The notes under the pieces are model-generated. The model searched no databases. It was not told the origin of the DNA and worked only from the letters and a program-made list of their open reading frames with translations. 22,509 bases of DNA from positions 1 to 22,509 of IMG/VR virus record IMGVR_UViG_3300030105_002680. The stretch is one strand, 5' to 3'. This document shows, piece by piece, positions 1 to 4,447 of the stretch. Each line of letters opens with the position of its first letter. The stretch's first letter is position 1. The position numbers and the translations under genes were made by a program. Origin of the DNA: a virus.

Positions 1-1284
1 AACGAACAGCTAAATGCAATATATGCATCCAAGATTGGATTAGAATTTGAATTCTTTGCCAATGAAGGAATGGATGAAGTTAAGAGAGACCTATCTCAAA
101 CTCTAAATAAGCAAATAAGAGTTGAAGAAAAGGCGCACAGTGACTTTGTACCTAGTGATGAAATTTTCAAATTAGAACCAGATAACTCTGGTGGATCTGG
201 AATGATTGAACTAGTAACAGGACCAATGCCTTTTGTTGAATCCAAACTTATTATTGCAAAGACTCTAAAATGGATTAGAGAAAATGGATCTACTAATGAC
301 AGATGTTCTATACATATTAACGTAGCTTTTGATGGAAAAAAATTAGGATCTCCTACTAACGTATCATCTTTAGATATTGGTAAGTTTGTTCTTAACTTCA
401 ATGAGGATGCTGTTTATGAAGCATTTCCTGACAGAAGAGATTCTGTTTATGCTAAATCTATAAAATTTATTGTACCATTAAGTGGAATGACACAACCTTC
501 TCCTGAAAGAATTTCATGGAAGAATTACATGTTTGTATCAGAAAAATATTATGGTGTAAACTTTTCTAAAATACCTAAGAATTATATTGAATTTAGATAT
601 TTAGGTGGTAAGGATTATGAAAAGAAATATAATACCATAATGAATATGACAGAACATTTTGTTGTATCTTTATATGAGAGTTTAGTTAATCCTATTTATA
701 ATAAGGATGATCTTAAAAAATTAGATTCCATTTTAGAACAACATAAAGGTATTGTAGAATCATATAAAACTTATCAAGCATTCAAAAGAAAATTTCCTAA
801 AATTAGATTAATGGTTGATTTAAAAACATATGACCAAATAATTGAAACGTATTACCCTAAAATGAGAGAACATTTATTTGAATTATTAACTAAAGCTGGA
901 TTAAAAGAAGGTTTAGTTAATTACGATGCAGATACTGGTAGAATGCAACTTAAAGGTGCAGAGTTAATGAAATGCTTTGAAATAAAAGGTATTGATATTG
1001 TTGATTCTAAAATACAAGGTAATGTTTTAAATTGTGATATATTTAGTACAGAGTTAATTAATTCATCAATGACTGAATGTAATCTGTTTGGCTCAACTGA
1101 TGTTGTTGATTCTAAAATAGAAGATTCTTATGTAAGTAAAAATGTAAGTTGTAAAGATTCATATGTTTTTGGCATGAGAGGAGTTTTTAGTGGAGACATG
1201 GAAGGTGGTATATTTAGAAAAGGTAGGGCTACTGAATTAGCAAAGTTTGAGAATACTGAAATTATTGAAATAGAAAAAATATAA
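1..1284 (+). CDS. Amidoligase-family enzyme fused to pentapeptide repeats (5' end outside window)
   Basis: The frame is open from base 1, and the codons before the ATG at 70 encode a conserved motif, so that ATG is internal and the gene starts upstream; 427 codons are visible. Numbering from base 1, KIGLEFEFF (11-19) matches the G-x-E-x-E-F opening of the Amidoligase_2 family (glutamine-synthetase-like COOH-NH2 ligases). The family's other blocks follow in order: IELVTGPMP (69-77), CSIHIN with Cys102, His105 and Asn107, and VNF...IEFRYLGG (186-202). Known members are predicted ATP-dependent amide-bond formers. The substrate here is unknown. A helical linker leads to a C-terminal pentapeptide-repeat segment (about 340-364) and a beta-rich tail. 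It lies six bases before the next gene in a baseplate cluster, so a virion-associated or virion-modifying role is possible. The family call is fairly sure; activity and role are inferred. Confidence 0.75.
   Translation, partial: NEQLNAIYASKIGLEFEFFANEGMDEVKRDLSQTLNKQIRVEEKAHSDFVPSDEIFKLEPDNSGGSGMIELVTGPMPFVESKLIIAKTLKWIRENGSTNDRCSIHINVAFDGKKLGSPTNVSSLDIGKFVLNFNEDAVYEAFPDRRDSVYAKSIKFIVPLSGMTQPSPERISWKNYMFVSEKYYGVNFSKIPKNYIEFRYLGGKDYEKKYNTIMNMTEHFVVSLYESLVNPIYNKDDLKKLDSILEQHKGIVESYKTYQAFKRKFPKIRLMVDLKTYDQIIETYYPKMREHLFELLTKAGLKEGLVNYDADTGRMQLKGAELMKCFEIKGIDIVDSKIQGNVLNCDIFSTELINSSMTECNLFGSTDVVDSKIEDSYVSKNVSCKDSYVFGMRGVFSGDMEGGIFRKGRATELAKFENTEIIEIEKI
1018..1092 (+). repeat. Five tandem pentapeptide repeats in the amidoligase C-terminus
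   Basis: The encoded pentads are GNVLN, CDIFS, TELIN, SSMTE and CNLFG. They fit the A(D/N)LXX rule: a small residue, then mostly Asp, Asn or Glu, then a hydrophobic residue. Two DxVDSKI copies flank them exactly 35 residues (seven pentads) apart, so the repeat register probably extends on both sides. Pentapeptide repeats fold as a quadrilateral beta-helix, often a binding or spacer module. Confidence 0.7.
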
Positions 1285-1290
1285 AATAGC

Positions 1291-2154
1291 ATGGCTAATA
1301 CAAATACATATTGTAATGATCCGGCAGAAGCCGAATGTTTAGATGCATTAATAAAATTAATTAATGATGATCTTACTATTGCTTGTCAGATACCATTCAC
1401 GGTTCCTAAAAAGGAATTGGCAAACATTATTACTAGAGCAAAACAATACTTTTATAAAATATATGAAGATAGTGTAGAGCAAATGTATATTGCTTTACCA
1501 GCAGGCGCAGTTTTAAAAGAAACATTTAAACAAGGTGTACCTTATGGAACTGGTTCAGATAAAGAAACAATAACTAATAAAGCTAACATTGCTAATCCTA
1601 GAGGTGTTGTTCAAATGCCGTCAAGAGTATATTCAGTTAATGCTGTATTTGAAATTGGTGGATTTAGTGGTGAAGATGGTGGTTTTGGTAGTATGAGCTT
1701 TAATGCTGATGATGTTGATTTTTCAATAGATAAGTTTATTTATAATGATGTTTATGGTGCAGGTCTTGGTAGTGAAAATTTAATGTACTATGTAGTGAAT
1801 TCATTATTTATGGATAATGCAAGACAAGTTCTTTTACCACAAATATCATATACTTATAATAGATTAACAAAGAAGTTTAGATTCCAAGGTGAACTACCAA
1901 AAAGAGCTACTATATTTGAAATATTTTCAACAATTCCTGATTGTGCATTGTTTGAAGATGAAGCCTTCCAAAGATACGTTATAGGAATAGCTAAAATTCA
2001 ATTAGCCAGAATATTAGGAACCTTTTCATTTAATCTTCCAGGTAATATTACTATTAATTATGATTTAATTTCAAGTGAAGGCCGAGATGAAGTTGATAGA
2101 GTAGTTGAAGAAATTAAAAACGACGAAGGTGTTGATTACTTTTTTACAGGATAA
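1291..2154 (+). CDS. Unassigned, probable virion structural protein (287 aa)
   Basis: I do not recognise a named family. The N-terminal third (about 20-75) looks alpha-helical, with charged helices around KKELANIITRAKQYFYKIYE. A Gly-rich beta region follows (about 125-150). The last 80 residues look like a conserved block: an FQRYVIGIAKIQLARILG helix, then FNLPGNITINYD and a charged helix ending near DEVDRVVEEI. There is no signal peptide or membrane segment. The length is in the range of T4 neck proteins gp13 and gp14, but no motif I can see proves that. It sits between the amidoligase fusion and the baseplate genes, so a structural or tail-completion role is the best guess. The ATG follows an A-rich stretch without a Shine-Dalgarno site. 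Confidence 0.6.
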   Translation: MANTNTYCNDPAEAECLDALIKLINDDLTIACQIPFTVPKKELANIITRAKQYFYKIYEDSVEQMYIALPAGAVLKETFKQGVPYGTGSDKETITNKANIANPRGVVQMPSRVYSVNAVFEIGGFSGEDGGFGSMSFNADDVDFSIDKFIYNDVYGAGLGSENLMYYVVNSLFMDNARQVLLPQISYTYNRLTKKFRFQGELPKRATIFEIFSTIPDCALFEDEAFQRYVIGIAKIQLARILGTFSFNLPGNITINYDLISSEGRDEVDRVVEEIKNDEGVDYFFTG

Positions 2155-2214: not shown

Positions 2215-2577
2215 ATGATAAGAGATATTTATAGTCGTGATATAGAGGCCCCTAACTTTAGTGAAGATACTATTGAGGTTAGCGATTCTTTATCTCAGCT
2301 AATTATAAAAATAGAAAATTGCCTATTCACTAGGAAGGGAGACGTATTAGGAGCTCCTGATATGGGTGCTAATTTAGATGAATTAATATTTTCATTAGTG
2401 TTAAATGAAAATACAATAGAGAATAAAATTACTTCACAAATTTCAGCATATTGTTTGCCTGATTTTTCTGGATTTGATGTTGACGTAAAGGTAACTTTCT
2501 TTTCAACGATAGAAAGAAATGGTTGCTTAGTTGATATATCAGTAAATGAACAACGAGTATTAGGAGCTCTATTTTAA
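2215..2577 (+). CDS. Baseplate wedge protein, gp25/GPW-like
   Basis: This 120-aa protein has the size and pattern of the GPW/gp25 family (T4 gp25, P2 gpW), small wedge proteins at the inner baseplate that link to the gp6/gpJ family and help start sheath assembly. The diagnostic block is at residues 36-59: a hydrophobic helix, then LFTRKGDVLGAPDMGANLDE, equivalent to the family's 'T-x-x-G-x-x-x-x-P-x-x-G-x-x-L' signature. A helix and a short beta C-terminus follow, as expected. The next gene is the gp6-like wedge partner 13 bases downstream, the usual order in contractile-tail phages and injection systems. The ATG has no Shine-Dalgarno site. The family call is strong. Confidence 0.85.
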   Translation: MIRDIYSRDIEAPNFSEDTIEVSDSLSQLIIKIENCLFTRKGDVLGAPDMGANLDELIFSLVLNENTIENKITSQISAYCLPDFSGFDVDVKVTFFSTIERNGCLVDISVNEQRVLGALF

Positions 2578-2590
2578 AAAAAGAAATTGA

Positions 2591-4447
2591 ATGTCATTTT
2601 TTAGCAAAACAAGAATAAGTGCCACCGAGCTATTCCAGGATTCTTTTGAATACCTGCAGCGTACATATAATCAAGCAATTGAAGTATTTACGCCTGCCTC
2701 ACCGTTTGGTCAAATATTAACAGTTGTCTCAAACTTAGGTGAAATGATATTCTTTTACATTGAGGCTGCTCTTACTGAATTAAATATATCCAGAGCTAGA
2801 AATATAGAATCAATCTACGGATTGTCTAGATTAACTGGTCATGATCCTACACGAGGAATATCTTCAAGAGGTATAATTGGATTACGTTTAAATACAAGTG
2901 CGGCTAGCCTCCTTACTGGAGATTATGTACAAATTATAAACGGTGCTAGTTTTGAAATTGCTCAAAATGGCTTAACCTATTTTTTACGATTTAATTCAGA
3001 TTTTATCAGATTAGATAAAACCACAAAAACATTTGTTGATGTTGAAATAATACAAGGTGAAAAAGATGAGCAATCATTTACTGGTACTGGTTTTGCATTA
3101 CAGAGTTATAACCTAACTACAAAAGAACCTACTGATCAATTTTTAGTTGATGTTTTTGTTGATGGACAATTATGGAAATTAGTAGATTCATTATATGATA
3201 TGAATAACGGTGAAAAAACTGCAATGATTAAAACTGGAGTAAATGGAGGATTAAGTGTATTCTTTGGTAATAATCAATTTGGTTTACCACCTGCATTAGG
3301 ATCAAGAATTAGAATTACATATATAAAGACAAGAGGTAATGCTGGTAATATTGGAGGAAAGCAATTAGACATGAAGTTTTCCACATTTGGAACAGACTCT
3401 TCTGGTATAAATGTAGATTTAAATGAAATCCTATCAATTAATATTACAAGGAATCCAGGTTTTGGTTCAGATTCTGAGGATCCACAATTTACAAGATTAA
3501 TTGCTCCTTATGCAAGTAATTCATTCGTATTAGCAAATCCTAATAATTATATTTACTATTTAAGTAAGTATGATTTTTGGTCTTTTATAGATGCTTATAA
3601 TACAAAGAATGATGAATACTTAAATGATGATAATATTATTTACTTATTTTTAATTCCTGATGTAAAAAAGAAACTTACTAGTGATGTAGATTATTTTAGT
3701 GTACCTGAAGTAGAATTTACTATGACTGCTGATGAAAAGGCAATGACTTATGAAATTCTAAACAAGAGTGGTAGACAGGTTGTTACAGCAGAAACTAGAA
3801 TAGTCGATGCCGTTATTAGAAAATATGCACTGAACATTGTTATTAGATGGTTAGAAGATTTTGATAAAGATGAAATAAGAATTGAAATAAGAAAAAATTT
3901 AGATGAATATTTTTTAAATGTAAATAGAAGAGATAGGATTCCAAGATCTGATATTATTTCTATTATAGAAAATGTAGAAGGAATAGATTCTGTAAATGTA
4001 TTCTTCATATCACAAAGAAACGAAGAGGCTATTAGAAATGGTTTTTATTTTATTCCTGTTTATGGAACAGATCCTATAACTGATCAAAGAGTCTTAATAG
4101 AGAATAAGAAAATCGTATTGAAAAAGGATGAAGATCCACAATTAGGTTTAGATAGTTTTGGTGATGTTGTTATAGAGAATAATGATTTAGCTATTATTAG
4201 AGGTGGGTGGAAAGATAGAAATGGTACATTCTATGAACCTATACCTGAAGCTAATAAAATAAGTTCTCTTAATGTATTCTATAAAGAAGGAATAGCAAAT
4301 AATCTTTATAATAAAATACAACAAGAAAAATATAATTCAACACAAAGAAGTAGAGGTACTACGATTGCGACTGGTGTAAATTCTGCAGGTTTAAATACTG
4401 GAAGATTAGTAAGCACACCAACACTTAAAACATTAAAGGGAAATTAA
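2591..4447 (+). CDS. Baseplate wedge protein, gp6/gpJ-like
   Basis: This 618-aa protein is close in length to T4 gp6 (about 660 aa), the wedge subunit that forms the ring joining wedges around the hub. Near the N-terminus (about 58-90) is the helical block ending SRARNIESIYGLSRLTGHDP, typical of the family ('ARN...A...G...'). A beta domain carries IRITYIKTRGNAGNIGG (about 240-255), like the 'Y..G..GN' motif of Baseplate_J proteins. Near 445-470, NRRDRIPRSDIISIIENVEG and DSVNVFF match the family's C-terminal 'i..s.i...i..v.GV..v' segment. The last 80 residues are polar and Ser/Thr/Asn-rich. It follows gp25 and ends one base before the next ATG. It should assemble with the gp25-like and gpI/gp7-like products. 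Confidence 0.85.
   Translation: MSFFSKTRISATELFQDSFEYLQRTYNQAIEVFTPASPFGQILTVVSNLGEMIFFYIEAALTELNISRARNIESIYGLSRLTGHDPTRGISSRGIIGLRLNTSAASLLTGDYVQIINGASFEIAQNGLTYFLRFNSDFIRLDKTTKTFVDVEIIQGEKDEQSFTGTGFALQSYNLTTKEPTDQFLVDVFVDGQLWKLVDSLYDMNNGEKTAMIKTGVNGGLSVFFGNNQFGLPPALGSRIRITYIKTRGNAGNIGGKQLDMKFSTFGTDSSGINVDLNEILSINITRNPGFGSDSEDPQFTRLIAPYASNSFVLANPNNYIYYLSKYDFWSFIDAYNTKNDEYLNDDNIIYLFLIPDVKKKLTSDVDYFSVPEVEFTMTADEKAMTYEILNKSGRQVVTAETRIVDAVIRKYALNIVIRWLEDFDKDEIRIEIRKNLDEYFLNVNRRDRIPRSDIISIIENVEGIDSVNVFFISQRNEEAIRNGFYFIPVYGTDPITDQRVLIENKKIVLKKDEDPQLGLDSFGDVVIENNDLAIIRGGWKDRNGTFYEPIPEANKISSLNVFYKEGIANNLYNKIQQEKYNSTQRSRGTTIATGVNSAGLNTGRLVSTPTLKTLKGN

Follow-up and report, generated by a model that had tools for sequence, protein, structure and literature searches.

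Gene organization of the locus

The window analysed here, by which we mean the whole stretch of DNA under study, is a virus record of 22,509 bases. Its first open reading frame remains open across positions 1 to 1284 and runs off the left edge (this and all features below lie on the plus strand). From its sequence and predicted structure, we identify the product as a protein of very large bacterial viruses, in which a glutamine synthetase (GS)-like enzyme, a predicted amide-bond former, is fused to a short β-helical tail. The amidoligase-pentapeptide fusion gene (1..1284) was delimited by the open frame, full-length orthologues and the family alignment. Two orthologues (L001 and L002) are 100% identical over the part contained in the window and add only three residues N-terminal to it, so that the window gene is almost complete, with its first three codons outside. 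Full-length close orthologues have 430-432 amino acids, and a residue number in the window plus three gives the number in the full-length protein. A first-pass annotation of this DNA had placed a G-x-E-x-E-F motif ahead of the first ATG in the window and counted it as part of the gene; both the open frame and the orthologues agree with this placement.

Close behind the ligase gene lies a gene for a neck/head-tail adaptor-like protein (1291..2154; phrog_211, 2.1e-11), followed by genes for a gp25-like baseplate wedge protein (2215..2577; phrog_43, a weak match at 3.1e-4) and a gp6/J-like baseplate wedge protein (2591..4447; phrog_219, 1.4e-23, with a weak Baseplate_J match at 0.046, under the cut-off). 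The baseplate and wedge context proposed in the first-pass annotation is thereby upheld.

Family assignment and motif conservation

Searched alone against Pfam, the window protein gave no match to Amidoligase_2 (PF12224); being below detection, it owes its assignment to this family to its relatives. Each of 90 representative members was scanned singly, and 29 matched Amidoligase_2 at E<=0.01, while the remaining 61, including the window's orthologue, had no match at this threshold. In such single-protein scans, an orthologue with 69% identity (L047) scored 23.1 bits and L142 22.1 bits, against a curated cut-off of 22, and a distant relative from Atu_ph07 reached 30.2 bits. In PHROGs, the window protein matched two function-less families and one regulator at chance level (0.2), and of two relatives scanned, one found phrog_2443, an amidoligase family, at 1.5e-5; a match of the neck protein to phrog_2443 (0.13) was taken as chance. 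Six proteins compared with NCBIfam yielded weak matches only, mostly of pentapeptide type on the tail (HalA at 0.0011, with 18.2 versus 250 bits). PADLOC returned no match for the family proteins, and a PF14395 profile search returned none anywhere searched. A six-frame family search of the window record found nothing either and is uninformative, since no control genome was matched.

The first-pass annotation had recognised the Amidoligase_2 blocks in their expected order, and this order holds: in window numbering, the blocks are G13-x-E15-x-E17, D61-x-S63-G-G...E70, H105-x-N107, R145, K182-Y-Y-G-x-N187 and E197-x-R199. Their conservation was assessed in a family alignment of 301 sequences (300 loci plus the window), 299 of which matched the family at 1e-10; of these, 289 were complete by a start/stop rule and represented 155 distinct proteins, the ten dropped being the window and nine loci. 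One retained row is apparently truncated at a contig edge, and several loci correspond to the same contig fetched twice. Using full-length numbering from here on, G16, E18 and E20 of the G-x-E-x-E-F motif in the first catalytic strand (37..54) are present in 154 of the 155 proteins, the other row being gapped by the apparent contig-edge cut. All 155 keep D64, S66 and E73 of the D-x-S-G-G-x4-E block (181..210), the arginine R148 (433..435), K185, Y186, G188 and N190 of the K-Y-Y-G-x-N motif (544..561; Y187 in 154), and E200 and R202 of the E-F-R motif (589..597); G68, K131, E138, Y153, P162, Y203, G205, N310 and R409 are equally invariant. In the H-x-N motif (313..321), which hhalign pairs with the GS His motif in a short, non-significant segment, H108 and N110 are each kept in 151 of the 155 proteins. 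The Glu, His and Arg positions are presumably the defining ones of Amidoligase_2, as the first-pass annotation also held, and no general loss across homologues was seen, Glu and Arg being retained essentially throughout and His in all but four. These four (L142, L197, L210 and L211) make up a minor subgroup whose motif His is replaced by Gln, and their activity may differ.

In ungapped comparisons of the window's identical orthologue with 12 close orthologues, dN/dS ranged over 0.04-0.14 for the catalytic part and 0.10-0.18 for the tail, and both domains are under purifying selection. In our judgement, the protein is very probably catalytically active. A structural pseudoenzyme, whose GS fold and β-helix would serve as a mere building block of the neck or baseplate, would also account for the gene order, the core conservation of the gene and the Q at the motif His in four members; however, the acidic, Arg and Lys motif positions are invariant in family members down to 28% identity to the window protein's orthologue, which fits catalysis better, and we regard such a role as decidedly improbable.

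Predicted structure and relationship to glutamine synthetase

An AlphaFold2 model built from 90 sequences had a mean pLDDT of 91.5 and a pTM of 0.86. The top Foldseek match in the PDB was the glutamine synthetase 8fbp (1.7e-4), with low whole-chain TM-scores of about 0.3, and at E<=0.001 the matches comprised 14 glutamine synthetases and one bifunctional glutathione synthetase. VIA-align placed 4bax first (Z 12.4, rmsd 3.2 over 182 residues), and among the matches listed, all 50 were glutamine synthetases or GS-like enzymes, at 10-15% identity. The catalytic barrel of GS (4bax, 8fbp) superposes on the model, residues 1 to about 235 aligning mostly from GS residue ~100-119 onward, whereas the N-terminal domain of GS, which in the true enzyme completes the active site, has no counterpart. 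Sequence comparisons with GS were not significant: hhalign of the family profile against 13 GS sequences gave an E value of 0.052 over 18 columns, and the family profile searched against PDB sequences gave 10 weak matches, all on the tail and none to GS. The link to GS therefore rests on the predicted fold. Structure comparison thus recovered a GS-like fold, with PF12224 matches in the relatives, in keeping with the amidoligase identity first proposed, and we consider the fold and superfamily (GS-like, Amidoligase_2) practically certain.

Among viral models (BFVD), the best match, ahead of many proteins named amidoligase, was A0A6J5PQ40, which comes from an uncultured Caudovirales phage and is uncharacterised. 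Since A0A6J5PQ40 matches structurally over the whole length (TM 0.90, 24% identity), the architecture was already present in databases.

The C-terminal domain

Residues encoded at 907..1281 form a predicted pentapeptide-type β-helix with a conserved capping segment, supported by periodicity, Pfam matches of relatives, a separate model and fold matches, which together substantiate the pentapeptide-repeat C-terminus described in the first-pass annotation. The repeat pattern consists of a small residue two positions before a hydrophobic centre, every five residues; over residues 318-368, a stretch picked after seeing the model, the score of this rhythm was reached by 12 of 20,000 shuffles. Pentapeptide_4 was matched at E<=0.01 by 31 of the 90 members scanned singly; among the relatives with individual bit scores, the best stayed below the curated cut-offs (26.7 vs 38 bits for Pentapeptide_4, and 17.3 vs 20.2 for Pentapeptide). 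The separate C-terminal model (pLDDT 94.5) has a β-strand every five residues, and its best Foldseek matches were the pentapeptide proteins Rfr23, MfpA and AlbG, with Qnr also among the fold matches. VIA-align of the tail gave Z values of at most 9.2, with antigen 43 in the top row; these values are common to other β-helices, so that the pentapeptide label draws chiefly on the rhythm and the relatives' Pfam matches. The tail is also found in members at ~30-34% identity.

Five-residue periodicity and, in the predicted structure, a β-helix are shared with MfpA, AlbG, Qnr and Rfr23, but here they occur in a short tail of ~120 residues fused to an enzyme. In MfpA and Qnr, the β-helix acts as a DNA-like binding surface. 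By analogy, the fusion protein might join an amino acid to a modified base, with the β-helix as a DNA-like surface, or it might make a gamma-glutamyl metabolite. The presence of MfpA, AlbG and Qnr among the fold matches and a mean net charge of -4.6 for the C-terminal domain would suit such nucleic-acid or small-molecule chemistry, but this charge is not large, with individual values between -9 and +6, and we hold this function to be highly improbable.

Distribution in very large phages

Four viral scans were carried out, the first of which gave 70 confirmed stretches and the others at least 566, 482 and 468, with 80 kept from each of these three. Relatives whose alignments span 88-99% of the protein, with identities of 31-41%, occur in LR756500 (462 kb), LR756502 (642 kb), LR745206 (635 kb), LR756501 and LR756503 (735 kb) and LR756504 (636 kb); these record sizes of 462-735 kb match the largest phage genomes reported in 2020, according to the available sections of that report (PMC7162821). 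A scan of genome contigs from 84,980 species found a single relative, L142, on a 5.9-kb MAG contig; the patterns used were narrow, and cellular relatives may lie beyond their reach. This contig (L142:1-5933) is filed under a Deltaproteobacteria MAG and has phage-type neighbours (S1 domain, neck and gp25-like), with a GIY-YIG-like frame, recognised by eye, between the S1 and ligase genes.

Synteny and core-gene status

The gene order in the window's group is S1-domain protein, ligase, neck protein, gp25-like and gp6-like protein. We compared 95 loci, namely 90 representatives under 90% identity and 5 phage records. The neck gene lies directly downstream on the same strand in at least 58 of them, with a spacing of -14 to 25 nt (first start codon), and the S1-domain gene lies directly upstream in at least 50, and within four genes in 55; because some loci end shortly beyond the ligase gene, these counts are minimum values. 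In one locus (L004:6811-7950), the gene immediately upstream of the ligase, itself surrounded by baseplate genes, encodes an S1-domain protein of ~380 amino acids (PF00575, 1e-16), and a hub-like and a wedge-like protein are encoded further upstream. In the 462-kb phage and in L142, the S1-domain gene is also upstream, with inserted genes in between. A second gene-order group (e.g., L143-L180 and L068-L071), which holds the 635-735 kb phages, has the ligase either close to baseplate genes that lie on the other strand or at a distance from such genes, and hence the linkage is not universal; both groups were defined by gene order alone. A gene resembling DHH-type phosphoesterases by eye is often found close downstream of the ligase in this second group (L068:11817-14093, L069:11823-13814).

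The arrangement noted in the first-pass annotation recurs in related phages of the window's group: in a search that started from the neck gene, the ligase was directly upstream in 145 of 146 testable loci, the remaining one (L489) carrying a frame-broken copy. This search covered 157 loci (L340-L496, omitting L001, L101 and L235, already in the first set), of which 11 with less than 1.6 kb upstream were set aside (nine with the ligase adjacent and two without). The neck loci were the best 80 matches per scan, many of them on contigs of the first set, and represent near relatives rather than an independent random sample. Among these near relatives of the window, the ligase is a core gene. The L489 copy (L489:4600-6000) is split by several frame shifts, possibly a sequencing error, and its relatives have intact copies. 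A T4 late-promoter pattern gave 10 matches vs 7.5 expected, that is, no signal.

The S1-domain neighbour raises the alternative of a function linked to translation. RimK acts on S6, and by analogy the ligase and the adjacent S1-domain protein might act together as a module, with ribosomal or S1-like proteins as the targets of modification. The upstream position of the S1 gene in at least half of the loci would agree with this, as would the S1-domain match found in 11 of 14 large records and the S1-domain proteins described for huge phages in the accessible part of a published survey (PMC7162821). However, in the phages of 635-735 kb a distance of over 20 kb separates every S1 match from the ligase gene, the match is absent from a 211-kb fragment (G006) and from the distant carriers Atu_ph07 and SCTP-2, and the neck gene is spaced closer to the ligase than the S1 gene is; we therefore consider a role in translation quite improbable.

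Partner genes and the cell-wall cassette

In the available sections of published work, the amidoligase genes of phages figure as accessory genes of metabolism or of the cell wall (PMC10580990, PMC3890496, PMC5498523), and an amidotransferase accompanies the amidoligase (PMC5498523, PMC10580990, PMC3890496, PMC3517423). Three cases combine the amidoligase with a glutamine amidotransferase, two with an ATP-grasp protein and one with a cyclotransferase (PMC10580990, PMC3890496, PMC5498523); in PSA-HP1, a cyclotransferase accompanies the amidoligase and amidotransferase. The peptidoglycan-modification cassette of phiEco32, RIO-1 and PSA-HP1, with similar genes in LUZ24-like phages, likewise contains phage amidoligases, but its partners as given in these sources are not found beside the ligase of the window family. 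No amidotransferase, ATP-grasp protein or cyclotransferase was named among the annotated neighbours in the window and the relatives' loci, which extends the first-pass annotation's statement that a gamma-glutamyl cyclotransferase partner was missing. The class-II glutamine amidotransferase profile PF13522 matched none of the 14 large records (seven of them fragments, and only L019, of 181 kb, from the window's group), and all 14 control genomes. Gamma-glutamyl cyclotransferase-like (GGACT) genes were found in five of the 14 large records, at least 24 kb from the ligase. In the parts of the UFV-P2 description at hand, cassette-type genes are located in the early module (PMC3890496), in contrast with the position among neck and baseplate genes observed here. 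The family, then, does not fit the published cell-wall cassette.

These data bear on the possibility that peptidoglycan or some other polymer at the surface of the host envelope is modified by the enzyme, for example to block superinfection. Such a function has been proposed for amidoligase cassettes of other phages, as far as the accessible text goes (PMC5498523, PMC10580990), and would be compatible with the GGACT genes of some large records; however, these genes are remote from the ligase. This explanation loses weight because the gene is core within a neck/baseplate run in its group and the cassette amidotransferase was not found in the 14 large records, and we rate it as rather unlikely.

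Proposed function and significance

We favour, tentatively and with slightly less than even confidence, a ligase with a GS-type catalytic barrel and a β-helix that would be made together with neck and baseplate proteins and would modify a virion or other late protein of the phage. Glutamine synthetase binds ATP and metal, activates a carboxylate and joins it to an amine. As an ATP-dependent carboxylate-amine ligase of this superfamily, the enzyme would use its acidic residues to bind ATP and metal, turn a carboxylate into an activated acyl phosphate and couple it to an amine. Its genomic context suggests production along with neck and baseplate proteins; the β-helix, which most likely recruits a macromolecular partner, would dock the enzyme on a protein made by the phage, most probably one that belongs to the virion or is otherwise produced late, and this protein would be amidated or tagged with an amino acid during assembly. 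That the substrate is a protein seems somewhat probable. The tight spacing to the neck gene and the gene's core status speak for a late protein of the phage, and that the substrate is a protein of the virion or of late expression has, in our view, nearly an even chance; the presence of the enzyme itself in the particle is doubtful. In a more specific and fairly unlikely version, a core enzyme of the huge-phage clade would read the assembling neck or baseplate with its β-helix and amidate or cross-link the phage's own proteins with its GS-like barrel. Membership in a run of tail genes need not mean action on virion proteins.

The Amidoligase_2 family is already known, as is at least one database protein of the same architecture without an assigned function; the apparent novelty lies in recognising that an amidoligase-pentapeptide subfamily constitutes a core gene in one group of huge phages. 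No report of such a fusion was found in the available portions of the literature on amidoligases, phage amidoligases or pentapeptide repeats. In contrast with the accessory amidoligases of other phages, the amidoligase of the window's group is a core gene, locked between the S1-domain and neck protein genes, and from this degree of conservation it follows that huge phages need its function. If virion proteins are indeed modified, this would represent a previously unrecognised covalent step in the maturation of contractile tails; within the accessible text of the literature searched, we found no description of covalent neck or baseplate amidation in contractile-tail phages. The small size of the protein, its confident model and its clear motif residues make the proposal directly testable.

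Distant relatives and prepeptide-like starts

Atu_ph07 (AUZ94978.1, named 'Amidoligase enzyme' in BFVD) and SCTP-2 (gp124/gp125) carry distant homologues of the catalytic domain only, at ~26% identity; the alignment ends at about residue 249 and leaves the tail unaligned, their N-terminal parts are longer and their neighbours differ. In Atu_ph07, one gene separates the amidoligase gene from the portal gene. Mass spectrometry of the Atu_ph07 virion has been published (PMC6102473), and by accession offset AUZ94978.1 would correspond to gp196, within the MS-rich cluster CDS 170-215 as given in the available part of that article.

T4 head proteins carry capsid-targeting prepeptides that are cut after Glu, as stated in the accessible sections of PMC5694885. 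In the second-group loci and in L067-L071 (e.g., L067:15238-16634, L071:9205-9840), many genes open with a short Lys/aromatic-rich stretch ending in x-Glu. Such prepeptide-like starts were counted in 41 of 563 ORFs in 42 loci (the loci lacking an S1-cluster gene, together with L067 and L142; a few of the 42 belong to the first group) vs 1 of 539 in 53 S1 loci; an internal-Met control gave 7 of 2239 and 6 of 3258, respectively. This pattern was drawn up once examples were already known, and a looser one was less clear in the control. Genes with these starts may encode head-packaged proteins. The SCTP-2 amidoligases (L073:13924-17684, L072:14497-15999) and, less clearly, that of Atu_ph07 also have prepeptide-like starts, ending in I/L-x-Glu, and these distant amidoligase relatives might be packaged in the head.
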